Positions 156 through 25,391 of a stretch of DNA of 27,407 bases are shown here, piece after piece; positions within the stretch are counted from its first letter, which is position 1; each line of letters begins with the position of its first letter. Source of the stretch: a virus; the IMG/VR virus record IMGVR_UViG_3300025598_000142, positions 1 to 27,407 of that record; one strand, written 5' to 3'. Position numbers and translations under genes: made by a program. The notes beneath the pieces were generated by a model, which worked only from the letters and a program-made list of their open reading frames with translations, made no database searches and had not been told where the DNA came from.

Positions 156-171
156 GCTAGTTTTATCTAGC
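156..171 (-). other. Short hairpin across the peptidase stop codon
   Basis: GCTAG (156-160) and CTAGC (167-171) form a perfect 5-bp inverted repeat around a 6-base loop. A flanking T:A pair could extend it to 6 bp. It overlaps the TAA stop of the peptidase gene (163-165). No run of T follows it in the transcribed direction, so it does not look like a classic rho-independent terminator. It may be chance in AT-rich DNA, or a weak RNA-stabilising hairpin just before the next late promoter. Confidence 0.22.
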
Positions 172-1392
172 AATGGTAGTCTGTCTAGGATATGTGGGCC
201 CTGTTGAAGATCTAAATCCATAATTACGTTTAGGAAATACTGTACCTGTTCGTATTGTTTTGTATAAAGCAGTTCCAATTGGTGGTCCAAGACCGGTTAC
301 TGGATCCCATCCGCTAGTTCCAGCATAGCCGCTGGTTATTTTTGTATTGTTAGTTCCCACAGTTATATCATAAAATGCGCTGGGGTTGGCATAGGCAATA
401 GTATTCCAATCAGGAGCAGATCTTTTTACTCCTGTTAATTGTAAGTATCTAGCAAGTATGCCTGCCAAAGTTGGACAAGATAAGCTGGTTCCGCCATATC
501 CGCTGATTGATCCGTTTACATAAACTGCATAGGCATTCATGGGAGCTGAAAAATCTGGTAGTCCTCGAGCATTTAGTGCTGTTGGACTGCCTGTTACACC
601 ATTAGTAATTGGGGTATAGTATAATCCTGTTTGCCAACTAGGCAAATTAAACAACACGCTTAAACCACCACCGCCACCCCATGTAGTGCCAAACCCTGCG
701 TCTCTATTGTCATCTGTTTCGCTAGCTCGAGTATTAGTGCCTGAATTGAGTGTTAGTTTTGTACCACCTGCGGATATCACATAAGGACTAGCACTGGGAT
801 AAACTACTCCTAATGCATTCGATGTAGGACTTACTACACTGCCGTAATCTCCAGATGACGCCAAGCAGGTAATTTTTGCAGTTGCCAACTGTTGAAGATA
901 CTGTTCGTCACTATTATATTCGTTGCCTCCCCAGCTGATAGTAACAATATGTATACCATCGGCAATAGCGGCTGACACCATGCTAGAAAGGTAATTGCCT
1001 ATATAAATTGTGATCTGTGCTTGAGGTGCCATACAGGCCGCACAATAGATATCCACTGTGTTTTCTCCGCTGCCTGTATCTGGACTTACACTGAAAGTAC
1101 CGGTCTGACCATCTAACAGCACTTGTCTAACTGTAGGAACTGTATAACTACTACTGATTAGTCCAGCAGTTTGTAAATCACTAAATGACTTGTTCAAATC
1201 ACTTTGAAGGAACCCGCCGCCAAAACTAAAAATTCCAATCTTAACTCCTAAACCAGTAGCAGTAGGAATACTGTATGCTGTTGCTATTTGCGGTGGGGTA
1301 AGATACCCATTGACAGGAATAGCATATGGCGTTTGGCCAGTGTCTGGATCTATTACTGTTTCAGGAATTAAATGTGCAGGAGTGTACGTCAT
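163..1392 (-). CDS. Sedolisin-family (S53) serine-carboxyl peptidase, no pro-domain
   Basis: This 409-aa protein matches the catalytic domain of sedolisins such as kumamolisin. The domain opens at residues 30-43 with LTPPQIATAYSIP, which matches the 'TP..IA.AY.IP' start of mature sedolisins. The acid pair is E110 and D114 (ENTVD), the oxyanion aspartate is D182 (SSGDYG), and the nucleophile is S303 (GGTSLSCP). The glycine-rich 'GGGGLSVLFNLPSWQ' loop is at 239-253. The C-terminal calcium-site pattern is YDIT (341-344) and GWDPVTGLG (361-369), with D342 and D363 as likely ligands. Cellular sedolisins normally carry an N-terminal pro-domain of roughly 180 residues. Here only about 29 residues precede the domain, and I see no signal peptide. 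The basic tail (about 377-409, with KR and several R) is an extra. The ATG lies one base after the fibre stop (TAATATG) with no clear Shine-Dalgarno, which implies translational coupling to the fibre. Family assignment is strong. A role in the virion, either processing of fibre or baseplate or attack on host surface proteins, is inferred from position. Confidence 0.9.
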   Translation of the reverse strand: MTYTPAHLIPETVIDPDTGQTPYAIPVNGYLTPPQIATAYSIPTATGLGVKIGIFSFGGGFLQSDLNKSFSDLQTAGLISSSYTVPTVRQVLLDGQTGTFSVSPDTGSGENTVDIYCAACMAPQAQITIYIGNYLSSMVSAAIADGIHIVTISWGGNEYNSDEQYLQQLATAKITCLASSGDYGSVVSPTSNALGVVYPSASPYVISAGGTKLTLNSGTNTRASETDDNRDAGFGTTWGGGGGLSVLFNLPSWQTGLYYTPITNGVTGSPTALNARGLPDFSAPMNAYAVYVNGSISGYGGTSLSCPTLAGILARYLQLTGVKRSAPDWNTIAYANPSAFYDITVGTNNTKITSGYAGTSGWDPVTGLGPPIGTALYKTIRTGTVFPKRNYGFRSSTGPTYPRQTTIAR

Positions 1393-1393
1393 A

Positions 1394-4051
1394 TTAATTT
1401 TCTAATTTTAAGTATGTTATAGTCACTGTAATAGCCTGTGTTGATCCGCTATTATTTGTAATTCTCAAATACATGTTTGTGCTAGGAGTTCCATCAGCAT
1501 TGTAACCATATACCGCAGGAGTAAAATAAGTTGTAGTTGCAGTAGTTGTTATTGCTTCTGCTACAACACCACTACCTGGTGTTGGATCTGTTGTGATTGT
1601 TCTGCTACTGTCACTTGACTGTGCTGTAGAACTAGTGTAAATTGATACCCAGGCTCCTGCACTTACCTGAATACTATACAATGCATATCCTTTTGCGGCC
1701 GTAACTGTTGCAGTGGCAGCGGCATTGGCAGCCAAACTTGACGTTGTAGTTGCTACTGTTGCTCTACTACTCAATGCTCCACCAAATGTTGGTGCGGCGC
1801 TAATTACTCCATTATTGATAGTAACTGTAGTTCCGTCAATTTTAACACCACCCAACACACTTGTAGTTGCAGTTGGCAATGTGTATGAATACGCATTACT
1901 AATTACTCCGTTACTGATAGTAATAGTTGATCCATCAACTTTGACTCCGCCTAACTGTGTAGTACTAGCAGTGGCAAGACCAATTGTACCGCTAGTGTTT
2001 AGGATACCGCTAGTAGTACTTACCGGAATATAAACTCCGCCTAGAGTAGTTGGACTAGCTGATGGCAATGAGTATGTGTAAGGTGCGCTAATAATTCCGT
2101 TATTAATTGTAACGGTAGTTCCATCTATTTTAACTCCGCCCAATACTGTAGGACTTGAAGTTGGTAAAGTATATTGCGTTGAGCTTATGATACCATTTGA
2201 TATTGATATCGTGGTTCCGTCAACTTTAACTCCACCTAGTACACTTGTACTTGCAGTTGGCAATGAGTATGCACTGGCACTACTAATAACACCGTTGTTA
2301 ATTGTAATACTAGTGCCGTCAACTTTGACACCACCCAATATACTAGTTGTTGCTGTTGGTAATGTATAGTTTGTATAGTTTGCTGTAATTGTACCGCTAA
2401 CGATACTAATTGTTGAGCCATCAACTTTAACTCCACCTAACACACTTGTACTTGCAGTTGGCAAAGTATAAGACGACTGTACAGCACTAATTACACCATT
2501 ATTAATTGTGACCGTGGTTCCATCTATCTTAACACCACCTAGGGTACTTGTTGTTGCAGTTGGCAATGAGTATGCACTGGCACTACTAATAATCCCTGTT
2601 ACAGGATTGATTATAATTGTTGTACCGTCAGGTTTTACACCACCTAATGAAGTAGCTGTTGCAATCGGTAAAGTATAATTTGTATAATTAGCAGTAATGG
2701 TTCCATTAACAATGCTAATGGTCGATCCGTCAACCTTAACTCCACCTAACACACTTGTACTTGCAGTTGGTAAAGTATAATTTGTATAATTAGATGTGAT
2801 AACACCATTACTGATAGTAATTGTTGAGCCATCGACTTTGACTCCACCAAGCACACTTGTTGTTGCTGTGGGTAGTGTGTATTGTGGTGCTGTAATTACA
2901 CCGTTACTGATAGTAATTGTTGAGCCATCAATTTTGACTCCACCTAACACACTTGTTGTTGCTGTAGGTAATACGCTACTAATAACTCCACTTGTTGCAG
3001 TTATTGTTGTACCGTCAGGTTTTACACCACCAAGTACTGTAGTTGTTGCTTGAGGTAATGTATAACTACCTGTATTAATTGTTAATGTAGCTACACCGCC
3101 TGATACACCTGCGGTCACTCCAGTACCTGTAAAATTCAATGTTGTAACTGCACTTGCTACACCTTGTGTAGTTCCCGAATTTTGAACAGTCACACCAGTA
3201 ATACCAGATCCGCCGGCACCGTTTGTGTTGATGGATGTCATCAATCCTGTTCCAGAATTATAAGAAAAAGTTAATCCGGTTTGAGTTCCACCTGTAAACA
3301 TAGCGGCAGCCACAGCTCTAATATTAGATGCTAGTGCAGAAATGTTTCCGCCACTTGCAGAAATTGTAGTACCGTCAACAGTAACTCCGCCTAGTGTGCT
3401 TGTTGTTGCTTGAGGTAAAGAATAATTTGAACTAATAATTCCGTTGTTTATAGTGACCGTTGACCCATCAATCTTAACTCCACCTAATACACTAGTTGTT
3501 GGAGTAGGTAATGTATAATTATTCCCCGAACTACTGATAACACCGTTGCTAATAGTAATTGTTGATCCGTCGACTTTAACTCCACCTAGTACACTTGTAC
3601 TTGCGGTTGGTAGTGAATAATTACTAATTCCGCTTATGACGCCAGTTGTAGGATTAACTATAATGGTTGATCCGTCAACTTTAACTCCGCCTAATGTAGT
3701 AGTAGTCGCAGGAGGAAGAGCATACGAGTAAGGAGCACTTATAACTCCGCCGTTTACTATAACTGTTGATCCGTCAACTTTGACTCCTCCTAGTACACTT
3801 GTACTTGCGGTTGGCAAGGTGTAACTAGAAAAATTAGCACTAATTACACCACCAGCATTGATAGATATAGTTGTACCATCAATCTTAACACCACCTAGTC
3901 TGGATCCCGATGCCACTGGCAATGTATAAGAATTTACTAAACTAGCATACAGCTCAGTAAAATTTGAATTTATTTTAAGGCCGGCGGTACGTAATGTATC
4001 TCCAGTCTTATCTCCAACGGTTGTTCCGGTGTTTATCAGTTGTAAAGCCAT
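1394..4051 (-). CDS. Repeat-built tail fibre / adhesin (19 LGGV units)
   Basis: This 885-aa fibre protein has three parts. Residues 1-40 (GDKTGDTLRTAGLKINSNFTELY) form the short N-terminal motif often seen at the start of baseplate-attached structural proteins in T4-like marine phages. Residues 43-755 hold 19 units of about 30-35 aa. The unit core is Y(T/S)LPTATTSVLGGVK(V/I)DG followed by a short beta stretch and NGVIS. Residues about 237-329 interrupt the repeats between units 6 and 7 with a different segment (VAAAMFTGGTQTG...). Residues 756-885 are a non-repetitive, Ser/Thr-rich, beta-predicted C-terminal domain, likely the tip. Such repeats usually form trimeric beta shafts. Unit 17 is degenerate (LGGVYIPVSTTSG). 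Translation is supported by AAGGA 7 bases before the ATG. Fibre is the best reading. The specific attachment site and receptor are unknown. No chaperone gene of the gp38 or endosialidase type follows; the S53 peptidase occupies that place. Confidence 0.85.
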   Translation of the reverse strand: MALQLINTGTTVGDKTGDTLRTAGLKINSNFTELYASLVNSYTLPVASGSRLGGVKIDGTTISINAGGVISANFSSYTLPTASTSVLGGVKVDGSTVIVNGGVISAPYSYALPPATTTTLGGVKVDGSTIIVNPTTGVISGISNYSLPTASTSVLGGVKVDGSTITISNGVISSSGNNYTLPTPTTSVLGGVKIDGSTVTINNGIISSNYSLPQATTSTLGGVTVDGTTISASGGNISALASNIRAVAAAMFTGGTQTGLTFSYNSGTGLMTSINTNGAGGSGITGVTVQNSGTTQGVASAVTTLNFTGTGVTAGVSGGVATLTINTGSYTLPQATTTVLGGVKPDGTTITATSGVISSVLPTATTSVLGGVKIDGSTITISNGVITAPQYTLPTATTSVLGGVKVDGSTITISNGVITSNYTNYTLPTASTSVLGGVKVDGSTISIVNGTITANYTNYTLPIATATSLGGVKPDGTTIIINPVTGIISSASAYSLPTATTSTLGGVKIDGTTVTINNGVISAVQSSYTLPTASTSVLGGVKVDGSTISIVSGTITANYTNYTLPTATTSILGGVKVDGTSITINNGVISSASAYSLPTASTSVLGGVKVDGTTISISNGIISSTQYTLPTSSPTVLGGVKIDGTTVTINNGIISAPYTYSLPSASPTTLGGVYIPVSTTSGILNTSGTIGLATASTTQLGGVKVDGSTITISNGVISNAYSYTLPTATTSVLGGVKIDGTTVTINNGVISAAPTFGGALSSRATVATTTSSLAANAAATATVTAAKGYALYSIQVSAGAWVSIYTSSTAQSSDSSRTITTDPTPGSGVVAEAITTTATTTYFTPAVYGYNADGTPSTNMYLRITNNSGSTQAITVTITYLKLEN
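1787..3925 (-). repeat. Coding repeat array, 19 units of about 100 bp
   Basis: The fibre gene holds 19 copies of a unit encoding LGGV plus flanks. The copies are diverged overall but share long exact stretches. For example, 39 bases at 2251-2289 recur at 2554-2592, and 35 bases at 2427-2461 recur at 2736-2770. A gap without repeats lies at about 3065-3343. Units vary between 'SVLGGVKVDGST', 'LGGVKIDGTT' and 'LGGVKPDGTT' versions, interleaved rather than clustered. That pattern suggests duplication and recombination among units. Length changes by whole units would stay in frame. Confidence 0.88.
2251..2289. repeat. 39-bp exact direct repeat, copy 1 (copy 2 at 2554-2592)
   Basis: The 39 bases starting TTGCAGTTGGCAATGAG and ending CACTACTAATAA occur identically at 2554-2592, 303 bases away. 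The bases just outside differ on both sides. Recombination between the copies would remove or add 303 bp, which is exactly 101 codons, and leave the fibre frame intact. Confidence 0.9.
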
Positions 4052-19000: not shown

Positions 19001-19745
19001 AATAAAGTATTGATGGAGCATCAATTGGAACCACAAATGTTATTGTTCCTGATTCAACTGCATAGTTGTCTATAGCATTTGGAAATATATAACGATCGGT
19101 TGTGCCTGTTGATCTTAGAGTTTTAATACTGAAAGGATTACCAATACTATCAATATAAAATGTGTATGTTTGACCTTTGTATAGTCGCAATACTGGGTTA
19201 GGTGTTAATCCATCTGGGGTAAAAATGTATTGGTTGTTGGAACCTTCTGCTTGTACTTGAACTGAAAAAGAACTTTCTAATGGAATTTCATGCCCGTATA
19301 CCGTGATGGTTTCAGGGCCATAAGGCAACCAGTAATAGTTTTGAAAATTAACAAATTTATCCCAGTCAATATGTGGATCCCAAGAATACATTTCTTGGTT
19401 GTTTAAGCGAGTGTGGTTACTAGTATTGCCACCAAATACTGAAAGTTGATTAATATAATCAATATAATCTTTATAAAATACTACATTGTCTAAATTATCT
19501 TTAATAGTGATTGCAGGTTCTAATTGATAATTTTGTCTTACTGAATCAGCAGCCTTGACATAAACATCTTCACCTGTACTGGCCTTAGCATTTTTTCGGC
19601 CAATATATCCGCTAGTTTTTGTCAGTGTACCTGGACGGTATAATTGATCAACTGTCGATTGTAAAAACTTTTTATTAGCGTCGGTCTGATAAAATTTAGG
19701 TAATAAATTTACACTAAATCCATTTCTTTTAGAAGGTATAGCCAT
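4056..19745 (-). CDS. Giant mosaic baseplate/virion protein (5229 aa)
   Basis: This is one open frame of 5229 codons (about 570 kDa) with no frameshift or stop. Its ATG overlaps the gp6 stop by one base (TAATG), implying coupled translation. Residues 1-150 (NLLPKFYQTDANKKFLQ..., YSWDPHIDWDKFVNFQNYYW) resemble the large structural protein after gp6 in marine T4-like phages, a comparison made from memory. Modules follow, positions approximate. Chitin-binding-like (CBM5/12-type) segments with a 'Y..GDIV.Y...YY.A' pattern lie at 1420-1465, 1550-1590, 1735-1777, 2285-2330, 4960-4992 and 5040-5070. A Gly/Thr tract is at 2003-2040. An FG-GAP-like propeller spans 2200-2935. Paired 'GxGY..P.V' repeats are at 3313-3372 and 3697-3752. 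Conserved blocks include RPRQGMFVNRVEALKQF near 3250 and EQPYIDWAFKTSFVRATHN near 3570. Many 'V.VDG....DY.V' beta units lie at 4000-4800, and GERIQYYAKNGNVLSQLRRG is at about 4868-4887. It has no coiled coil or membrane segment, so it is not a tape measure. I infer a peripheral wedge or fibre-network protein in the place of T4 gp7/gp8. Confidence 0.85.
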   Translation of the reverse strand: MAIPSKRNGFSVNLLPKFYQTDANKKFLQSTVDQLYRPGTLTKTSGYIGRKNAKASTGEDVYVKAADSVRQNYQLEPAITIKDNLDNVVFYKDYIDYINQLSVFGGNTSNHTRLNNQEMYSWDPHIDWDKFVNFQNYYWLPYGPETITVYGHEIPLESSFSVQVQAEGSNNQYIFTPDGLTPNPVLRLYKGQTYTFYIDSIGNPFSIKTLRSTGTTDRYIFPNAIDNYAVESGTITFVVPIDAPSILYYQSETDINLGGTIQIYAASDATSINVESEILGKVNYTLSNGTPLSNGMKLNFKGQVYPTSYATGEYYVEGVGTAIKLIDSNTLEIIGAYTTSINVEFDQTPFDQEPFDTARGYAGNLDYILVNRASKDHNPWSRYNRWFHKDVISTSAMYNGNNPSLDQTLRAKRPIIEFSADLRLFNFGTVATVDVDLVDSFTTTAFATIEGAAGYNIDGVTVQAGMLILFTADTDPLVAGKIFQVEYIDVLHLDTGSNQLHLVEVASPMKDRVVLARQGITNQGSMYWYNGTNWTKAQQKTSANQPPLFDIYDSNGFSYGDSSVYSGSTFKGTALFSYATGSGTNDLVLGFPLQYQNVSNIGDIVFNFNLAIDTFQYKNLNTNSLESKAIDVGFLSSLDYSNNTIYLNGWQLCKTKNLQAAIRIYDNSGLVNNFPVDIYDNINNLTDLEVKIYVNGQRLDKSLWSIVAKNTYYQVVLNKDLAPTDILTIRAFSDQPINSNGFYEIPLNLQNNPLNDDIGNFTLGEVIDHVNSIVDNTASFSGNFPGASNLRDLGNITQYGTKFVQHSGPLSLAVYHITTESNNVVKALTQAKTDYSDFKRLFINTASSLGVHTDPVQFVELIMTKINSNKPKVAPYYFSDMVPYGANVKTDLSVVDYRIKKYPLNNTFNLTTLSNKAVGVYLNNSQLLYGTQYIFDDQGFIEISSSVSLSNGDIITTIEYDSTDGSFVPATPTKLGLWPKFEPRKYLDTTLISPQNVIQGHDGSIVLAYNDYRDDILLELEKRIFNNIKVEYDPTIFDLTDIIPSYNRDTPYSKKEFDSVLSTNFYSWIGLVGKDLSTPLNYDRTNSFTYNYSLNSAPNGTSLPGYWRGVYKWLLDTDRPHLCPWEMLGFSVRPTWWTKLYGDAPYTSDNIPMWTDIANGVIKAPGVPATVNAKYVKPFLIKHIPVDSSGNLISPQASGLASGLVQPNIDNNFVFGDVSPVENAWTRSSYYPFSVISTAILLNPAKTFGLILDRHNIIRNLANQLIYKPTGLRIKPADIILPSIYSSITRVQTAGLVNYVVDLIFNYIFSNDIAGYNSYLFDLQNMTPRLGYRVGAFTNQAQFNILLESKTPSSTGNVFIPVENYKVFLNKSSTVKKLVYSGVIITKLSTGFEIKGYSLTQPYFNYYQYNGSGATINVGGISESYAEWTVGQQYIAGTVILYNGKYYRALANFTALSTFNSQVLASLPSLPMTGGATATLRNSWDKETTTVAPYGTLFATVQQVVDFLLGYGEWLKDQGFVFDNFNNNLGTVSNWETSAREFMFWTTQNWSTGHDKWEDWEPNKSYKYATIVRYDGDYYSALQNIPLTNEFEFTKWNLLSGLNVEGASVISLSPSANTINFNTVLSVVDSITNGFNSYEIVKVNGTPFDVQNLDSYRQENTVSYTPRNSDGIYGASFYLVQNEHVIVIDNKTIFNDVIYSPTTGYRQERLKISGYTTTDWYGGLDIPGFIFDSAVVKEWQPWQDYNIGDIVNHHSYYYSANAFIAGSAVFNSSNWKKLDKKPTPAIIPNWTNIATQFTDFYSLEVDSFDAPQQQMAQHLIGYQKRQYLNNIIQDDVSEFKFYQGMIRDKGTQNVLNKLFGVLNSENKESLTFYEEWAIRVSQYGASKAFEDIEFVLDQAKYNINNPQGTVLIKRVDPTINPFIIQLTPNDIYVKPHGYNSRPFLELKTTVDSENGPVAINQFLRSAGYVDNTDVFVSIGQLKDLTGQSASSIVVGLSYKISTVGTTDFTQIGASASTVGTTFVATGTGTGTGTVVLDISQINEGAYFWCAFDGANSWNVYRFTDINLNVTNVTYNKTTHTLTLTTQYETSLKVGTYIGIGQSESIQGFYKIDSITLNNINIIAPGLSVPSPFTDLDNLTVYTLLSQRTGYIDTIDNILPARLEDGNIVWTDYASSDINSGWATWKYKKVYQSTTKNSPVVGAGINFAQFIAVSKNGNTAAVSVGTSQIATYDKVSTAVPWTQRQLIQPPFNSVGSPASATVISTAAVSPDGTWLATGSPTSGSSSTYYIGVYSPATVYAVNTIVSYNSILYQALFPVPAGNTPNQNSVFWNQIFYTPISDTSTYNTGVTANGMITLYQKDANNIYQIVDSILSPVISNEKFGSAIVFDSSNMYVSAPAYNNNTGRVYQFSYTTTPQVTSIYDEVNSTGTVLKLQSTAGISAGMIISGNDIFGNSAFNSDQVVEYVLTRLLFSPAIDTTGKEVINTVYNTSSTQINVSSILSGATVSLYNSSYAYSIPNLTVSSTGLTSINQLVTTHTLSSGGVTGTNTFILTTTVSDIAVGYLIVGYGLPPSSYVGAISSVGAPAKTQITVVDSQGASRAIQNFIATGTGTYAFYKIINYNFVEIKGQKDLVTNSSTLPITRVTFGSTSFPNGDPTLTFNISSTYVQSSKAVILSSAPDLTPNGSLTFSSVGWSYTRSFAGDTVNSYFGSQLALSRDGSTLAVSAIGGSVGKVYVYQAGVLIQTLTGFLPTFGQGITVSDDGTYIAVSDNTTGVSNINQRGSVGVYQLSSNNTYQLVSNLVPHTPETNGEFGTSISFMNDYKTLAVYSRYGSSTTTTTFDKTSVATTFDKKSTNFITTQIASGRVDVYDRYNVNWVYSESLPHTFDFTSGYGQGLSVGANNIFVGAPLLTVGTAGAQGLLTIYSKDPNAVSWTIDKTPVPIADVSKIKKAFLYSRSTNKLLTYIDIIDPLQGKIAGPAEEELKYKTFYDPATYSYSNGSASVTVNSSGFWSTEQQGQLWWNLSTTKFVVPYFPNPIYRNNTWNTLATGASVDIYEWVTTPLLPSQWDAQSSTPAGQSQGITGTTLYGDSAYSVTKTYNSVTKTFKNTYYYWVKNKTTVPDVPGRHISAQDVSSLISNPRGQGYTYLALMGTDSFSLVNVYGYLKSTDTVLAVEYWTTDKIHQNIHSQWKLISADTIVQLPKTIKEKWIDSLCGVDVTGRAVPDVLLPPKLKYGVENRPRQGMFVNRVEALKQFIEAVNLILLKNQIVDNYNIEDLYKVDPPPNIISGSYDKIVDTDADLSYSINLFIRPELAPIIVNGRITGITIISTGRGYIQPPYITISGSGKDALVRANIDTNGRIQSVTVLAGGIGYDDSTVATVRDYSVLVRSDSQASNSWSIYSFDPTYKDMTGSIVGRWSRSATQAYDVTQYWTKVDWYASGYNQFTAADYSVQLFVDLNFLNAQIGNIVKVSMATSTQWMLLEKYANSNSVDWTQSYRVVGIQAGTIQFNSTVYQTSFSAVGYDADTYDTGAYDIKAGTELRIILSTLQDKILIGDLYKNYLDLFFRSIRYAHSEQPYIDWAFKTSFVRATHNVGGFTQPVYYPVDNLSNFQDYIAEVKPYRTKIREYISQYTNTNTPDVSSTAVTDFDLPADIKNSSLSIINSFVVDGKISSDSPEVQVYPWKFWLDNVGFQVIDLKIVSGGSGYVTQPQVIFTSTSGSGASAQAFFTNGVVNRIILLTKGSGYLEAPTVSIVGGLSTTGTPATVVAILGNSVVRSNLTGIKFDRISYKPYISKIEETIELPGSGSLLSYELPWPPDLRTNKSSITVLNKNTNQSYPLLPEDYSLSQIKNKINGETQYSGIITFVKPLAANVIATLSYVKDTSVLNSIDRINFNYNPISGMVGKEYNQLMLGVDYGGTIVGNLGFTAGGGWSEQPYGTDKWDSFDPTFTDYTVTEPAVPTTSNPIKTTWTLPYVPASGTAINVYWGQYTEIVEYGDGVNKIFPFNFFLYPTVFLANNASAQSSTVQTKYSANANGTNYPISTTTVAVATGVGGASGQSTIIVDFPSNIFAGQFVSGIGVPYNTTVVSVTGTQIILSNNLTVAAVGQSYSFFVLGTVLTLGSTSGLTVGLGLVGTAFNTQTISKIIDATTIILNRAPDIIPVAGDVIAFVTNAAGSSILTVNNTSLIQVGDSVYTTNTNYLTAFGITVKVKSIDSATQLTLDQILYLNIADGINIVFRRDQSIPKDFTSPTNVIQFAIAPSSGTEVHIIGQFDPIRIDAGDYDDVSGSSPTNPYAVMQTIYANGHDGVVSVPAGIAHASDSFIFRQETSDGSIAPADRDTDISGGDLAYTTASGIAADDIILDGDGLVTPTSSPAPEEVVPGQVVDTLAIKVFDRPSQGSARIKVDNYIADGSRTNYTIGQQPVTVNSILVKVTGTNGNLGIQTLNTDYTIDYENSAINFAVAPSNSSIVTIFNIGYAGENILDLDYFIGDGITTEFITQAPWLDNFTATVFVDGVPAQVQYFQTDSNYVLVKSVGIRFINPPALNTVINYIVVSGSEQTFAITNTERISTNGSTTYQLQNLIGNLLPNETYMIVRVDQQILPAPVNSYFTVGSNQFTYTLNSNKIPPYSINASSISVLVGNNLLLAGRDYTVDLSVVSITITTTAYTVYQGKTLVVSVLLPNGYTYNASTRQITFAQSYDSSHIVEVLTSYEHDSVDLERTEVIVESNSTLVANSPVYYSITGVSGGLITLERSVIDENYIWVTKNSTLLVPGVDYRLNDDRITVQLAIIPTLSDVFEVLTYGTNVLTTGIAYVQFKDMTNKTSFTRLSLKKRTTLAQDLLWTDTSIVLTDASNFQVPSTDNKIPGIIEIQGERIQYYAKNGNVLSQLRRGILGTGIAKSNPAGTYVQDISSSETIPYKDTITVQTIIADGSNFVSVDFVPVRGSTTDTTGILEWFAQRGYTYIGTFNNSQSYNINDVVVYNGQYYYCTTFVPQTSLRSATIDYTPANTTVKTCWSLYDTIIPPNFGQSDQIEVFVGGYKDTADWSSGSSYAVGDIVNVGSYTYQCQEAHTSGATFFDDITVTNLDGTTTIENYLYFWKFFIGNIRLKKQPYSVHNVNIAPYSPAGDVRFDADFAVDGSSARVRLTNKVDLGTRVTVYQRTGTDWDGKYSPNILVDTSEIAQFIKAEPGIWYAEYNQISNKTLGAKRAVALTFDAPSTSFDQGDLTMDQG
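4059..4063 (-). promoter_or_regulatory. Shine-Dalgarno of the fibre gene, inside the giant gene's end
   Basis: The minus strand reads AAGGA, 7 bases before the fibre ATG at 4051. The motif overlaps the last sense codon and stop of the giant gene (CAA GGA TAA). Ribosomes finishing the giant protein would uncover or directly reuse this site, so the two genes are probably translationally coupled. It is the clearest ribosome binding site in the window and supports the fibre start. Confidence 0.75.
10940..13130 (-). other. FG-GAP-like beta-propeller region of the giant protein
   Basis: This stretch encodes about residues 2200-2935 of the giant protein. I count seven blade-like motifs of the form 'FG..(I/L)..S.DG..LAV....' followed by a 'G.V.VY' strand. 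Examples are SRDGSTLAVSAIGG with GKVYVY, and VSDDGTYIAVSDNT with GSVGVY. Seven is the usual blade number for integrin-alpha-type propellers. Two blade connections hold foreign modules: a chitin-binding-like segment between motifs 2 and 3 (about 2285-2330), and a longer beta-rich insert between motifs 3 and 4 (about 2400-2620). Propellers of this kind commonly bind proteins or glycans. That this one does so is inference. Confidence 0.65.
13649..13672. repeat. Hexanucleotide tandem repeat (TTCCAG)4
   Basis: Four perfect TTCCAG units lie inside the giant gene and encode alternating Thr-Gly (ATGTGTGTGTV) near residue 2025, next to a DFTQIGASASTVGTTF segment. Gain or loss of a unit changes the protein by two residues without a frameshift. 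It probably encodes a flexible turn or linker. Confidence 0.85.
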
Positions 19746-22700
19746 TACAAATTGCCCCCATACGCTGTGCTAGTAACCGATTGATTATTTGAAAAATTTG
19801 TATTTTGAGGTGTTACTGTTTTTAGATTAGATCCAGTAAAGCCAGACACCACAACTATATTATCTGTAGTAGCTGAGCTTATTAAAATCTGATCGCTAGG
19901 ACATTGGATTTCAAACAAATTGCCAAAATATAATCCTGGCTGTGTTGGAACAATAGCAAAATTAATAATGTCAGGTGTTAATTGATTCATAACGTAAGTA
20001 GATAATTCTGTAAAATAAAAAGAGTCGCCAAAGTTCCAGTTATCTAAACTAAAAAATGTGTTTATAGCTGTGAGTATTCTTGCTTTAATATCAGAGTTGG
20101 ATGCAGTACCCGATGGGTTGATCATAACATTGAAGGTAGCTTGTACACTAGGATCTGCATTTGATCCAAATAATAATTTGTAACTGACTGGATGATATAT
20201 AATTTCATCTGATATAGATTTAATTAAATCTAAATTTGTTGATAACAACGAATGTAATTCATCAGAGCTTGGTGGTAACGGTAACGTGCCGCCTGATGAC
20301 AACCATTGTCTGAATGCAATATCGTAATTTTTTGTTAATACATACACATCCATGATATTACTAGATCCTGGATCTATTCTACTGTCGTAGTCTGCACTGT
20401 GTACATATTGAAATTTTAATTTAGAACGACCAACATATACTTTATAATCAAGTGTTGGAACTAATTTTAGTACACCTGACAGATTTAGTTTAACAACTGT
20501 AGCAGTATCTATAAAATAAAAATATGTACCGTCCGCATAAGATGCAAAAGAAGCATTGCCTTGTGAAGGCAATACTATCACAGGTCCCAATATTGGATCA
20601 TTGGCTACATATCTGTAATCTTCTTGGCCAGAAGAAATTGTATATCTTTCTTCTACAATATATTTGGTTGTAACATCACCTGTTAATGGACTTACAATAT
20701 CCACAAACAACTGAGGATTATCTACTACTCCACTGCCTGTTGAATCTGCAAAGGTAACTACAATCTTCTTAGGATCAATGTAGCCATCTTGTCCATAATA
20801 TTCGGATACAATTTGCCAAGTAAGATCCTGTGTGAAAGGAGTTGGCAAATCAGGTTGTGGATTAACACTAAGAATTTTAACAGTATCTAATACTGTAGAA
20901 CTAGAAGTACTATCGTATACTGGCACATTAGAGTCAAAATAGAATGTCAGTTCTGCATCGCTTTCAAATATATAACGCAATTTTCTTGTGTTAATTGTAT
21001 ATTGTACTGTGTTGGATGTAAACAATAAAATCCAGCTTGAATCTAAATTTTGTAACGTTGTATCGCCTTGGTTAGCAAGACTAAATGCGTTAACAGAATT
21101 CAAATTATTTGCATAGACAATTTGCCACGTAGTTGTTAATGCATCGTATCGCAAACCAAAATTATCATTTGCCTTAATTAAATCAATCATTGCTGTTATA
21201 ATAGACGGGGTTAATGTTCTATTAAATTGCGGCATTATCTGAGATAAAATTGCTTTCGATGGAATAACTTTATCTAATACGATTGGTCCTGATCCGTCAG
21301 TCAACACTCCGCTACCGCCAGCAGTACCATCGTCAGTTACTTTAACAACTTGCGCCCATATATAATTGGCTGTGTTATCTGCTGATATTGATCCAGTTGT
21401 TGCTGTTGCTGTTTGAGACTTGTTTACTATCCATGTTGTTCCAGATCCTGAAACAATATATGTTCCAGCGGCAACTGTTCCACCGCTTAAAGACATGCCG
21501 GTAACAACATTACCAGTTACATTAGTTATAACTAACGTATTACCAGAAATATTTCCTACAAAATTTACTGTAGATGTTATCAATGTGTTTGTAGTTAAAT
21601 TAAAACATTGTCCTGCAGGGGCTATAAATTTAATCAAAGATCCTGGAGTAATATATTTCAAATCTGTAGCAGTAGATGATCCTACAATATATGGAATAGT
21701 TTGTCCTGGGGCATTAATAAATCCGCTAACTGTATTACTGTCAATAGTAACGCTAGTCCAGGCAGCATTGATACTAACACTAAGATAATCTAAAAAATTT
21801 GCGTAATAAAAATTTCTTAAATCAGGAGAATTTAATATATCATAAATTGTATTATCAATTACACCTTGAATATCTAAATCAGTTACATAGGAAAAATTTG
21901 TTGAATAGGTGTATGTTTCTTGATATATGATCCCGTCATCACCAAACAAATTAGTTGTGCTATATTTTCCTGTAGGGTCAAGCAAGTCAAAATATCTACT
22001 TATACCACTACTAGTTCTGTTGACTGCTTTGACTTTTGCAATTTGTAAATTAGCACTCAACGGACTAATATTATAATCTTCGCCAGTAATCATACGATTT
22101 TGAGTATAATATGTCTGTGGAGCATTTGTCTTAATACTGGCGTTTGACTCTGAAGGTGCTGAATTTATTACACTGGTTGCTAGACTTAAACTAATTGTTA
22201 ACGTTTCTGTTTGGTTGCTTGCCGATGTATAAGGCACGCTGAACAAAACATTTACAATATCATTGGCATTGATAGTATAGTTTAATCCATTACTGGTTCT
22301 ATAATAAACTCTAAAATTTCCAATTGGTAAATTACCAAATGTACCGTCGCTAAAAGAAAGACTTATTGCATCTTGTGCTTTAGTTATTATACTAAAAATA
22401 TTTTTAATAGAATTGTTAATACTATTATAGATTGAGTTGCTACCTGATGTAGAAGGAACCTGTGTCCACAATGTGTCTTCTAAACCAGTTTGTTGATTTA
22501 ATGAATATAACCACACATCTGTATCATTAATTTGTTGTGTGTTAATATCTATGGTTTGATTGGCTGTTGGATTTGTTATTGTAAATGTACTTTGATTTAG
22601 AGTACCCTGCACAAAATTAAAAAAGAATCCAGTGCCTGGACTACTTGCACTATGTCCGTCATCAGAGTATATAAATGCCAAGGCGTTTCCTATTTTAGGA

Positions 22701-23386
22701 GGCTCTTCGTATATGTAAGTTTGATTTTTGAATGTAGTACTGGTGATTTCAAAATTCATACTACGACCAGCAATATTTTTTGTAAAAGGATAAACAGGCA
22801 CTTCTGTTGGATTAGAATTAAATCTATATTGTGCTGTAGGAACTCCGTAAATCGTAGCAGAATCTATAGGATTTCCAAATTGATGAGTAGATGGCAATGC
22901 GGCATTTAATACTGAAATAAACTGATTGTGCCAATTAGAATTACTAGGATCATTCCAAGTAACATATTGTCCTGATAGATTCCTGCCATTGCTATCAAAC
23001 ACTGTTTCTGTTGTGCTGATTGCACTGAATTTTAGTAGGCCGTTTGCTGGAACGTTTCTATGGGCAGTGTAGTTAATCATACGAGATAAGCGTAGTACAC
23101 TTTCTCTGCGTTCTGCTAACTCTAAAAAGTTCTCGCGGGCGTTCAAGTCCACACGGAACGCTATACTTTGACCAACAAATGCTATAAGATCTATTAGGGC
23201 AAGGTATTCACTAGACTCAATATAGTCATTAAAATCTTCAGGAAAATTTGTACGGACATATTCAATCATTGTACGACGTAAATTTTCAAAGTCATAGCTT
23301 TGAAAATCGGCATTCTTGAAAGATTGATAGATTTTTTGCCAATTTTCTGACACTAATAAATTATTTTGTCTGTCCGTTGAACTCAT
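19745..23386 (-). CDS. 6: Baseplate wedge protein gp6, enlarged
   Basis: The N-terminus (LLVSENWQKIYQSFKNADFQSYDFENLRR, then DYIESSEYLALIDLIAFVGQSIAFRVDLNARENFLELAERRESVLRLSR, residues about 10-105) is characteristic of T4-like gp6. The C-terminal block, residues about 1000-1190 (MDVYVLTKNYDIAFRQWL, SISDEIIYHPVSYKLLFGS, NWNFGDSFYFTELSTYVMN), is the other conserved part. gp6 proteins dimerise into the inner ring of the baseplate wedge and join neighbouring wedges around the hub. T4 gp6 is 660 aa. This one is 1213 aa, with extra material between the conserved ends, including a beta module at about 598-668 (NISGNTLVITNVTGNVVTG...SGSGTTWIVNKSQT). An AGGA 7-8 bases before the ATG and a late promoter upstream support the start. 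The gene begins a coupled group with the giant protein. Confidence 0.93.
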   Translation of the reverse strand: MSSTDRQNNLLVSENWQKIYQSFKNADFQSYDFENLRRTMIEYVRTNFPEDFNDYIESSEYLALIDLIAFVGQSIAFRVDLNARENFLELAERRESVLRLSRMINYTAHRNVPANGLLKFSAISTTETVFDSNGRNLSGQYVTWNDPSNSNWHNQFISVLNAALPSTHQFGNPIDSATIYGVPTAQYRFNSNPTEVPVYPFTKNIAGRSMNFEITSTTFKNQTYIYEEPPKIGNALAFIYSDDGHSASSPGTGFFFNFVQGTLNQSTFTITNPTANQTIDINTQQINDTDVWLYSLNQQTGLEDTLWTQVPSTSGSNSIYNSINNSIKNIFSIITKAQDAISLSFSDGTFGNLPIGNFRVYYRTSNGLNYTINANDIVNVLFSVPYTSASNQTETLTISLSLATSVINSAPSESNASIKTNAPQTYYTQNRMITGEDYNISPLSANLQIAKVKAVNRTSSGISRYFDLLDPTGKYSTTNLFGDDGIIYQETYTYSTNFSYVTDLDIQGVIDNTIYDILNSPDLRNFYYANFLDYLSVSINAAWTSVTIDSNTVSGFINAPGQTIPYIVGSSTATDLKYITPGSLIKFIAPAGQCFNLTTNTLITSTVNFVGNISGNTLVITNVTGNVVTGMSLSGGTVAAGTYIVSGSGTTWIVNKSQTATATTGSISADNTANYIWAQVVKVTDDGTAGGSGVLTDGSGPIVLDKVIPSKAILSQIMPQFNRTLTPSIITAMIDLIKANDNFGLRYDALTTTWQIVYANNLNSVNAFSLANQGDTTLQNLDSSWILLFTSNTVQYTINTRKLRYIFESDAELTFYFDSNVPVYDSTSSSTVLDTVKILSVNPQPDLPTPFTQDLTWQIVSEYYGQDGYIDPKKIVVTFADSTGSGVVDNPQLFVDIVSPLTGDVTTKYIVEERYTISSGQEDYRYVANDPILGPVIVLPSQGNASFASYADGTYFYFIDTATVVKLNLSGVLKLVPTLDYKVYVGRSKLKFQYVHSADYDSRIDPGSSNIMDVYVLTKNYDIAFRQWLSSGGTLPLPPSSDELHSLLSTNLDLIKSISDEIIYHPVSYKLLFGSNADPSVQATFNVMINPSGTASNSDIKARILTAINTFFSLDNWNFGDSFYFTELSTYVMNQLTPDIINFAIVPTQPGLYFGNLFEIQCPSDQILISSATTDNIVVVSGFTGSNLKTVTPQNTNFSNNQSVTSTAYGGNL

Positions 23387-23434: not shown

Positions 23435-23869
23435 TTATGCCGGACCTAGCAGACCGTTGTCTTGATCAAATTTCAATTGTATAGATTCTTGCAAATTGTA
23501 TAGAAAATATTTCAAATCACATTGTATTTGTATGCCATTATCATAAGGTGTAACTAAAATATTTGTTGCCTGAACACGAGGATCACTGTTAAAAATCTCG
23601 TTAACATTTTCTAATATTGCATTTTGTACATCAGGTGTCAATGGCTCAAACAGTAGATCCCAGATTATAGATCCAAACTCAGGTTGCATCAAACGTTCAC
23701 CTTTTCTTACAAAGAAATTATTCAACAAGTCTTGCTTGATAAGTGCAAAATCGTATAGTGCATAATTTTGTGTATCTTTGCTAACAGTACTGAAGCCCCT
23801 GTAGAACTGTGTTTTGACAGGGCTGTTAGGTTGATTTTGTGGTAATTGTGGAACAGTATAAATGGTCAT
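23435..23869 (-). CDS. 25: Baseplate wedge protein gp25 (GPW/gp25 family)
   Basis: This 144-aa protein is close in length to T4 gp25 (132 aa) and has the family's features. These are the N-terminal DFALIKQDLLNNFFVRKGERLMQPEFGSIIWDLLFEPL block (residues about 40-80) and the ENVNEIFNSDPRVQ helix-and-turn (about 87-102), where 'DPR' stands at the position of the family's conserved 'EPR' motif. gp25 joins gp6 and gp53 in the wedge core and contacts the sheath, helping to start sheath polymerisation. The fold is conserved in type VI secretion (TssE) and other contractile systems. The ATG follows the gp5 stop by one base (TGATATG), with AAAGGA about 10 bases upstream, inside the gp5 3' end. It directly precedes gp6, as in related phages. 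Confidence 0.95.
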   Translation of the reverse strand: MTIYTVPQLPQNQPNSPVKTQFYRGFSTVSKDTQNYALYDFALIKQDLLNNFFVRKGERLMQPEFGSIIWDLLFEPLTPDVQNAILENVNEIFNSDPRVQATNILVTPYDNGIQIQCDLKYFLYNLQESIQLKFDQDNGLLGPA

Positions 23870-23870
23870 A

Positions 23871-25391
23871 TCAATTGTTTCCTTTTAAGAAGGTATCTGA
23901 CGAAGATGTATATGTTTTCCAAGATTTTGGAACACTGATAGCTGAGGCTTTTTCCCTATCAGTAGCATCAGGCTTAAACAAAGACCCATCTAGATTTTCA
24001 TGGTGCGGATAAGGTTCTGTAGTTGGTATTCGAGCCATTATACTTGTAATTGTTGTACCGTCAGTTTCTGTTGGATTGTCTATGGTAGACAATGCAGTTG
24101 CACTGGCTGCGCTGGTTGCAACACCTGAATTAAAATTAATGTTACCGCCATCGATGGCAGTATTGGCTGCCATGATATGCGTATCTCCGCCTGATGTAAA
24201 TTTGTTACTAGAGCCAGTATGAACATCATATTTTCCAGTAATAGTAAGTTTGCCATCGCCTCCGACAATCACATTATAATCTTTGCCCGACTCTGATTGA
24301 AATCTTTCTGCGGCTTTGATATTAACGTTGCGGCCTGCTTCAAAATTAATGTCTCGATCAGCATAAAAATTTAAGTCGTTACTAGAATGAACACTTACGC
24401 TGTCCTGAGCATAGATATCTATTTTACCATCACTGGTTAATTCTATCCAAGCAGTGCCTCGACTATTGGTAATATAAATTAAATCCTCAGTATTATGCAT
24501 TAATATCTGATGACCAGTTCTTGTACGTAACCTAATTAGTTCGTTGGCAGGTTTTGTAACATCGCCGTCTGTATCACCATTATCAATACTGGCGTATTCT
24601 GGAGGACCATCCGTAGGAGCTTTTTTTCTAAGCCAGTTGGCATCTCCATCATCCATAACAAATGTACTACCGCCCAGCCTACTTACTGGAGCATTTAATC
24701 TTTTCCACTCTGCTTTACCAACGTCTGCACGTTTTGCATCTGTTTGCTTATCTGTTGGGCCAGGAGTGCTAATACCAAATACCATACTAGGACTTTCTCT
24801 TCTAGCACTGCTGGTAGTAATTCCACGAATGTCATCTAACAACAATCCTTGGTTTTTTAGTATCTGTGCAAAGGGATGAACGGGTTTGAGATTTTTTTCA
24901 GGATCTCCTGTAGTGGCACTGTCTGGAGCCGCTTTGTTATATTCAGAAGTTGGCACTCGACTAGCACTGCCGTAATTGGTGTCTATTGCACCGCCCACTA
25001 CTTGTTGTGTGGCAGCCAAACCTGGAATCATAAAATTCATTGTGTCATCAATTACACACCCTAACCAGTAACCTCGCTTAGGATCTCCGTTGACAAACAT
25101 TATCATGACAATAGTACCTACATCAGGTGGTACCATCCACATGCCGTAACTTTTTTGTGTATCCTGATAATCATTATTAGGTCCAGTAAAATCTACACTG
25201 GTTACGCCATAAAAAGGACTTAGATATTTTACTTGATGTAGTTGTGTTTCACTATCAGTTGATCCTACGGGTCTTAAAATTTCAACTTCAAGGATACCCA
25301 TGTAGGTAGGATCAAGATTGCTGACAACCTTTGCTAAAAACGGGCCTGGTTTTGGTTCCGTTCCTTGTGAGGAATAATCTTCATTCATCAT
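23871..25391 (-). CDS. 5: Central spike protein gp5-like, without lysozyme domain
   Basis: This 506-aa protein combines an N-terminal OB-fold, residues about 15-125 (GPFLAKVVSNLDPTYMGILEVEI, MVPPDVGTIVMIMFVNGDPKRGYWLGCV), with a C-terminal triple-stranded beta-helix at about 282-425. The helix shows alternating patterns such as IRLRTRTGHQILMH, GKIDIYAQDSVSVHS, DINFEAGRNVNIKA and GKLTITGKYDVHTG. This is the gp5/VgrG spike layout, a trimer that sits under the hub and pierces the outer membrane. T4 gp5 has a lysozyme domain between these parts. Here the linker (about 130-280) is Gly/Pro/Lys-rich and shows no lysozyme motif. The ATG overlaps the upstream stop in ATGA; a second ATG follows at once, so either could be used. 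AGGA lies about 9 bases upstream. Confidence 0.92.
   Translation of the reverse strand: MMNEDYSSQGTEPKPGPFLAKVVSNLDPTYMGILEVEILRPVGSTDSETQLHQVKYLSPFYGVTSVDFTGPNNDYQDTQKSYGMWMVPPDVGTIVMIMFVNGDPKRGYWLGCVIDDTMNFMIPGLAATQQVVGGAIDTNYGSASRVPTSEYNKAAPDSATTGDPEKNLKPVHPFAQILKNQGLLLDDIRGITTSSARRESPSMVFGISTPGPTDKQTDAKRADVGKAEWKRLNAPVSRLGGSTFVMDDGDANWLRKKAPTDGPPEYASIDNGDTDGDVTKPANELIRLRTRTGHQILMHNTEDLIYITNSRGTAWIELTSDGKIDIYAQDSVSVHSSNDLNFYADRDINFEAGRNVNIKAAERFQSESGKDYNVIVGGDGKLTITGKYDVHTGSSNKFTSGGDTHIMAANTAIDGGNINFNSGVATSAASATALSTIDNPTETDGTTITSIMARIPTTEPYPHHENLDGSLFKPDATDREKASAISVPKSWKTYTSSSDTFLKGNN

Follow-up and report, generated by a model that had tools for sequence, protein, structure and literature searches.

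What is a serine peptidase gene doing one base behind a tail-fibre gene, at the end of a phage tail operon? The question is raised by the window, i.e., the whole stretch of 27,407 nucleotides analysed here (IMG/VR virus record IMGVR_UViG_3300025598_000142). The large genes of the window are all encoded on the minus strand, in the order virion structural protein, hub/spike, gp25-like wedge, 1213-aa wedge subunit, 5229-aa protein, 885-aa fibre, S53 peptidase. The genes referred to below are as follows, the first four as context only:

23871-25391 (part of 23435..25391), minus strand: baseplate hub/spike protein
23435-23869, minus strand: gp25-like baseplate wedge
19745..23386, minus strand: baseplate wedge subunit of jumbo-phage type, 1213 aa
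4056..19745, minus strand: giant structural protein of the tail operon, 5229 aa
1394..4051, minus strand: tail-fibre gene, 885 aa, with repeats
163..1392, minus strand: S53 (sedolisin, kumamolisin-like) peptidase gene, 409 aa, ATG start

The nearest relatives of the wedge subunit belong to the jumbo phages Phosso, SCTP-2, Atu_ph07 and 121Q (34-37% identity). Judging from its sequence, the window phage is not T4-sized and has a baseplate wedge of the jumbo-phage kind. Residues 4-51 at the N-terminus of the fibre resemble baseplate-wedge/fibre proteins (phrog_958). The 5229-aa structural protein, which lies between the wedge and the fibre, is without an assigned domain; in many S53 loci a counterpart, either shorter or longer, stands ahead of the fibre. 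In near-identical longer contigs (73 and 75 kb) the S53 gene is followed by a gene for a 202-aa protein (phrog_11259) and by more fibre-like proteins.

A sequence-only reading of this locus had described the last gene as a catalytically complete S53 peptidase, and both sequence and fold agree with that description. The best phmmer match in the PDB was kumamolisin (E=2.9e-38, residues 31-378, approximately 31% identity), followed by kumamolisin-As, tripeptidyl-peptidase 1 and sedolisin. A structure model built from 58 phage homologues (pLDDT 89.3, pTM 0.89; an earlier model from 12 sequences had pLDDT 50) was matched by Foldseek to kumamolisin-As (E=5.5e-28, TM 0.74/0.85). The sole Pfam match, partial and weak, was Peptidase_S8 (5.5e-08), a family with the same clan SB fold; the assignment to S53 is therefore based on the phmmer and Foldseek matches. 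We rejected membership in S8: the Asp/His/Ser triad is absent, Glu110 and Asp114 lie on the helix that holds the His in S8, and S53 structures score far above the Pfam S8 match. By sequence and fold, the window gene is an S53 peptidase of clan SB. S53-like folds were also seen among BFVD matches in metagenomic giant-virus proteins (Homavirus, Barrevirus, Sylvanvirus, Terrestrivirus), though these are named subtilase.

The catalytic residues are encoded at the following positions:

1051..1065, minus strand: codons of the catalytic Glu110 (1063-1065) and Asp114 (1051-1053), from alignment to kumamolisin
847..849, minus strand: codon of Asp182, the oxyanion-site aspartate (kumamolisin Asp164)
484..486, minus strand: codon of Ser303, the nucleophile in GGTS

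E110, D114, D182 and S303 match the kumamolisin motifs GExxxD, GD and GGTS, and all four are invariant in the alignment of phage relatives (58/58 rows). The calcium-site pattern claimed earlier is likewise recovered as a predicted site (Asp-Ile, Gly, Gly, Asp): D342-I343 and GWD363 align with kumamolisin, and the two aspartates, D342 and D363, are D in 54/58 and 55/58 phage copies. The protein thus shares its fold, catalytic Glu/Asp/Asp/Ser and calcium-site residues with kumamolisin, kumamolisin-As and pro-kumamolisin (S53; PDB 1gt9, 1zvj, 1t1e). It differs from kumamolisin in having neither a prodomain nor a signal peptide, in carrying a tagged C-terminal tail, in showing Ser where kumamolisin has Glu23 and in being encoded in a phage tail operon.

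With the whole protein, its C-terminal third or its N-terminal third as seed, IMG/VR scans turned up about 70 different S53 ORFs, one of them in a 345-kb contig. Every copy that covers a catalytic site keeps it. A pseudo-enzyme was considered and rejected: none of the copies found had lost a catalytic residue, and this includes those from the scans seeded with the N- or C-terminal third only. None of the outcomes that the sequence-only reading had named as refuting it was observed, neither a missing S53 match, nor misplaced catalytic residues in the fold, nor relatives without them. Values of dN/dS between 0.03 and 0.38 in close pairs show that phage S53 is under strong purifying selection. 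A chance match is excluded by the E-values, the tetrad kept in 58/58 copies and these dN/dS values. Searches of 50,697 phage records and of isolated phages yielded no S53.

In a quick tree (midpoint root) that included 55 S53 sequences from bacteria and archaea, the phage copies group as a single clade (SH-aLRT 99), neighboured by enzymes of Acidobacteria, Acetobacteraceae and Caballeronia. The single clade, together with the identity of bacterial S53 to the phage copies (26-39%), rules out recent capture of a bacterial gene. The IMG sample numbers of many S53 contigs may be those of humic bog lakes, a habitat in which an acid peptidase would be at home. In two contigs (L029:10001-11267 and L090:6885-8139) S53 is split over two frames, by assembly error or real decay.

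The prodomain of S53 is missing from the window protein, which begins about 30 aa ahead of the mature domain. A search for a prodomain encoded elsewhere showed PF09286 to be absent from four related contigs, all of them fragments. A prodomain-length N-terminal extension is present in about one third of phage S53 copies; Pro-kuma_activ was matched in both extended copies tested (L067, L111), and one extended phage copy aligns along its length with pro-kumamolisin. Because L067 and L111 retain the prodomain, we regard the window lineage as S53 with secondary prodomain loss. The position of kumamolisin Glu23, a second-shell site (window residue 56, codon 1225-1227, minus strand), is occupied by Glu in 20 of 21 prodomain-length copies and by Ser, Ala or Gly in all 37 copies without the extension; the loss of the prodomain and the change at this position go together.

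Read by eye, the N-terminus MTYTPAHLIPETVIDPDTGQTPYAIPV is without a hydrophobic core, and no signal peptide of the kind that secreted sedolisins carry is evident. An intracellular product must therefore get outside on the particle or after lysis. A rival explanation is a maturation protease, which would trim the fibre, itself or the 5229-aa protein in assembly and need not remain on the particle. Kumamolisin-type enzymes are acid-active, and such an enzyme suits the outside more than the cytoplasm. Consistent with maturation, the prodomain loss in the window's subgroup would permit immediate activity inside the cell, the gene ends the tail operon and is coupled to the fibre, and a maturation role has been proposed for group-specific peptidases among jumbo-phage structural proteins (PMC7824862).

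The link of the peptidase to the fibre is formed by two features:

1397..1726, minus strand: C-terminal fibre domain (LE domain), within phrog_15343, ending in ...TYLKLEN-stop
1393, minus strand: single base that separates the stop codon of the fibre gene (1394-1396) from the ATG of the peptidase (1390-1392)

Both the one-base spacing and the lack of a clear ribosome binding site had been pointed out before, and they hold: the ribosome-site position of S53 offers no more than a weak AGAA, which falls within the final codons of the fibre gene. A frameshift fusion of fibre and peptidase was rejected, since the open overlap ahead of the ATG amounts to no more than three codons, which leaves no long alternative frame. 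The fibre-S53 pair, which the sequence-only reading had proposed to seek in marine virus contigs, recurs in contigs of IMG/VR. Exactly one base separates S53 from the gene ahead of it in 44 loci, and 0, 2 or 3 bases do so in 11 more, even though the length of the protein encoded ahead varies between about 150 and 1162 aa. The LE domain ends 66 of the 79 upstream genes, cyanophage ones included. The peptidase is thus strongly tied to the fibre gene, both by position and by translation.

To see what follows the LE domain irrespective of S53, we used an IMG/VR scan with this domain only, blind to the neighbouring gene, and took the best 80 of 582 confirmed loci. Among these 80 the junction is one base in 54, and the next gene encodes S53 in 20 and S8 in 54; the rest have a truncated gene with an S-CAM1-type S8 start (two loci) or no peptidase (four). 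The 74/80 with a peptidase is not a census, because these are the loci most like the window's LE domain. Pfam confirmed five of seven S8 calls checked at LE loci, the other two being S-CAM1-like; the slot protein of S-CAM1 itself matches PF00082 at 3.5e-10.

S8 one base behind the fibre is also found in isolates, namely S-CREM1, S-CAM1, S-H9-1, S-RSM4, S-WAM2, S-CAM4, ACG-2014e and ACG-2014h. The cyanophage slot S8 proteins (phrog_9158, phrog_3677; S-CREM1 gp165, S-RSM4 gp039, P-SSM2 gp297 'T4-GC 292, PF00082'), some of whose records already bear the label 'subtilisin-like serine protease', resemble the window S53 in the LE-domain fibre ahead, the one-base junction, the C-terminal tag and the clan fold. 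They differ in the S8 catalytic domain, in an N-terminal region of their own and in their presence in isolated marine phages. The earlier view of the peptidase as an unusual component is therefore only partly right: S53 is the rarer occupant, but a peptidase behind the fibre is common and, with S8 in the same slot of cyanophages, is a standard module in these phages.

Not every slot holds a peptidase. In three contigs (L349, L354, L355) the LE fibre is followed by 57 bases and then by a 202-aa gene that is 75-83% identical to the one behind S53; no S53 or S8 was found elsewhere in these contigs, which are fragments, so that a copy elsewhere is possible. These empty slots mark the peptidase as a discrete cassette, dispensable to some relatives, and argue against its being required for fibre formation. 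Moreover, S8 and S53 replace each other despite being unlike in mechanism and specificity, and one 1362-aa chain (L094:6071-10159) has both, S8 at residues 139-504 and S53 at approximately 737-1128, with a cadherin-like domain. For these three reasons, of the two roles proposed earlier, we prefer that of a protease acting on the host surface; maturation of the fibre or of the giant protein we consider unlikely.

In other loci non-peptidase proteins occupy the slot as alternative cassettes, which would also be expected if the occupant were a fibre-tip adhesin or assembly partner, its fold binding a receptor or capping the fibre and its catalysis being incidental. T-even phages encode adhesins or fibre chaperones directly behind the fibre gene (gp38 behind gp37), the very position of the slot one base behind the fibre. 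A pure adhesin would lose catalytic residues, whereas the tetrad is invariant in 58/58 diverse copies with no dead copy among them, and the surface divergence of phage S53 is ordinary, not hypervariable. An adhesin is thus quite improbable.

The C-terminus of the peptidase suggests how it could be held at the fibre:

166..252, minus strand: C-terminal tail, residues 381-409, with no kumamolisin counterpart and low model confidence; holds the tag
184..213, minus strand: C-terminal tag RSSTGPTYPR, residues 394-403, of a form common to slot S53 and S8

The window model falls below pLDDT 50 only at residues 384-391 and 404-409, which places the tail outside the fold. The consensus of the tag in S53 and S8 slot proteins is about R-P-x-x-G-x-x-[YFW]-P-R; examples besides the window are RPTTGHIFPR (S-CREM1), RPVEGATYPR (S-CAM1), RPDSGAVFPR (Sf-FR1) and ERVNGMTFPR (S-RSM4). 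The window protein matches the pattern R..xG..[YFW]P[RK], which occurred 54 times across the loci collected at that stage, 49 of them at most 40 residues from the C-terminus. The tag is present in 44 of 63 phage S53 and in none of 79 cellular S53. In the whole of S-CREM1, S-RSM4 and the 345-kb contig it was found once each, on the slot peptidase; one further match in the three genomes looks like a coincidence, resembling a UDP-glucose dehydrogenase motif. With one tag per genome, a general motif of these phages was rejected. Where the slot holds a non-peptidase, the small next protein carries the tag (S-H9-1, ACG-2014i, Sf-CH1b, S-BM3).

The tag goes with the LE fibre: 39 loci have both, none has the tag alone, six have a variant tag and nine have neither (Fisher p 9e-7, kinship ignored). 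In about one third of phage S53 the tag is absent or different, and those copies have other fibres; behind a fibre without the LE domain, S53 lacks the tag and ends in another, tryptophan-rich tail. A second S53 subgroup (L093, L100, L101, L103, L114, L117) has a fibre ending in GDIWYQTF and a tryptophan-rich repeat tail (..TWSNVKAIWTKTINGWQQTF), a different fibre going with a different tail. The 345-kb contig (G005), with S53 at L167 (324669-325727, minus strand), has a second clan SB gene, a 523-aa S8, which lacks the tag and has no LE fibre ahead of it.

We consider it probable that the peptidase is a fibre-docked, virion-borne, exchangeable catalytic domain that acts on a host-surface protein. 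The fibre gene would be the first half of the module, its product ending in the conserved LE domain, and the peptidase gene the second half, translationally coupled across one base. The serine peptidase would be attached to the fibre end through its flexible C-terminal tag, which we infer docks to the LE domain. The catalytic domain would be exchangeable, S53 in the window's phage group and S8 in cyanophages. The virion would carry the peptidase at the fibre, and host-surface proteins (S-layer, outer-membrane or other cell-surface proteins) would presumably be its targets, cut during adsorption; alternatively, the peptidase might free the particle from debris. Two exchangeable catalytic types and one protein with both favour broad cutting of a protein layer over a single precise cut. 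The enzyme would then be the protein-degrading counterpart of tailspike polysaccharide depolymerases.

The peptidase might instead be released, acting off the virion, late in the cell or post-lysis, on extracellular protein, with the fibre link setting its expression only. In favour of release, bacterial acid peptidases are usually secreted, free enzymes. A tag common to unrelated catalytic types and linked to the fibre domain speaks against release, as do direct fusions to Ig-type virion-like proteins in other phages, and we regard a released enzyme as very improbable. In one such fusion (L028, 1413 aa), which adjoins a collagen/S74 fibre, S53 stands ahead of Ig repeats (Big_9, He_PIG) and of a C-terminal region common to the S8-Ig proteins of Atu_ph07 (gp329) and Phosso and to 121Q gp54, annotated as a virion structural protein. 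Agrobacterium phage Atu_ph07 gp329 and Sinorhizobium phage Phosso gp119 also combine a clan SB peptidase with Ig repeats beside fibre genes; unlike the free, one-domain window protein, they are S8 fused in a long chain.

Most MS-identified virion proteins of Atu_ph07 fall in three clusters, one of which is CDS 284-329; gp329, its last CDS, is without mention by name in the main text (PMC6102473). S-SCSM1, for which a virion proteome exists (PMC9602691), has an S8 match in the corresponding position, gp228, annotated 'virion protein'. A virion role is the most economical reading, and we infer that the peptidase is present in the virion.

In its manner of working, the module would resemble polysaccharide depolymerase tailspikes and T-even gp38 adhesins, in which an enzyme or tip protein at the fibre end is likewise encoded adjacent; they are not homologous to the window gene, whose enzyme is a peptidase. 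More tentatively, with the odds slightly against it, an interchangeable fibre protease may be shared by many aquatic contractile-tailed phages, the LE domain serving as socket, the tag as plug and S53, S8 or other effectors being swapped, with S53 as the version found in a single freshwater jumbo-phage group. If so, socket-tag fibre proteases would make up a general class of protein depolymerases carried on virions.

S53 and S8 themselves are old families, and in the literature outside subscription papers we found no account of S53 or S8 as a fibre module, nor of S53 in a phage tail. What seems new, as far as the sequences indicate, is the virion setting of an enzyme family known from elsewhere, and the form that a fibre-linked enzyme takes here. 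The phage enzymes known to clear the way to the host are mostly hydrolases of polysaccharide or peptidoglycan. A serine peptidase that is conserved and linked to the fibre, with two catalytic types for a single slot, would extend the means of host entry by a class of proteases and would point to protein surface layers as a barrier. The socket-and-tag pair might serve to place other proteins on fibres, and existing cyanophage isolates with the slot S8 make the module testable. In the contig with the S53-Ig fusion, an iron/manganese superoxide dismutase gene (L028:9107-9658) lies just upstream of the fusion, with glycosyltransferase/methyltransferase genes ahead of it.
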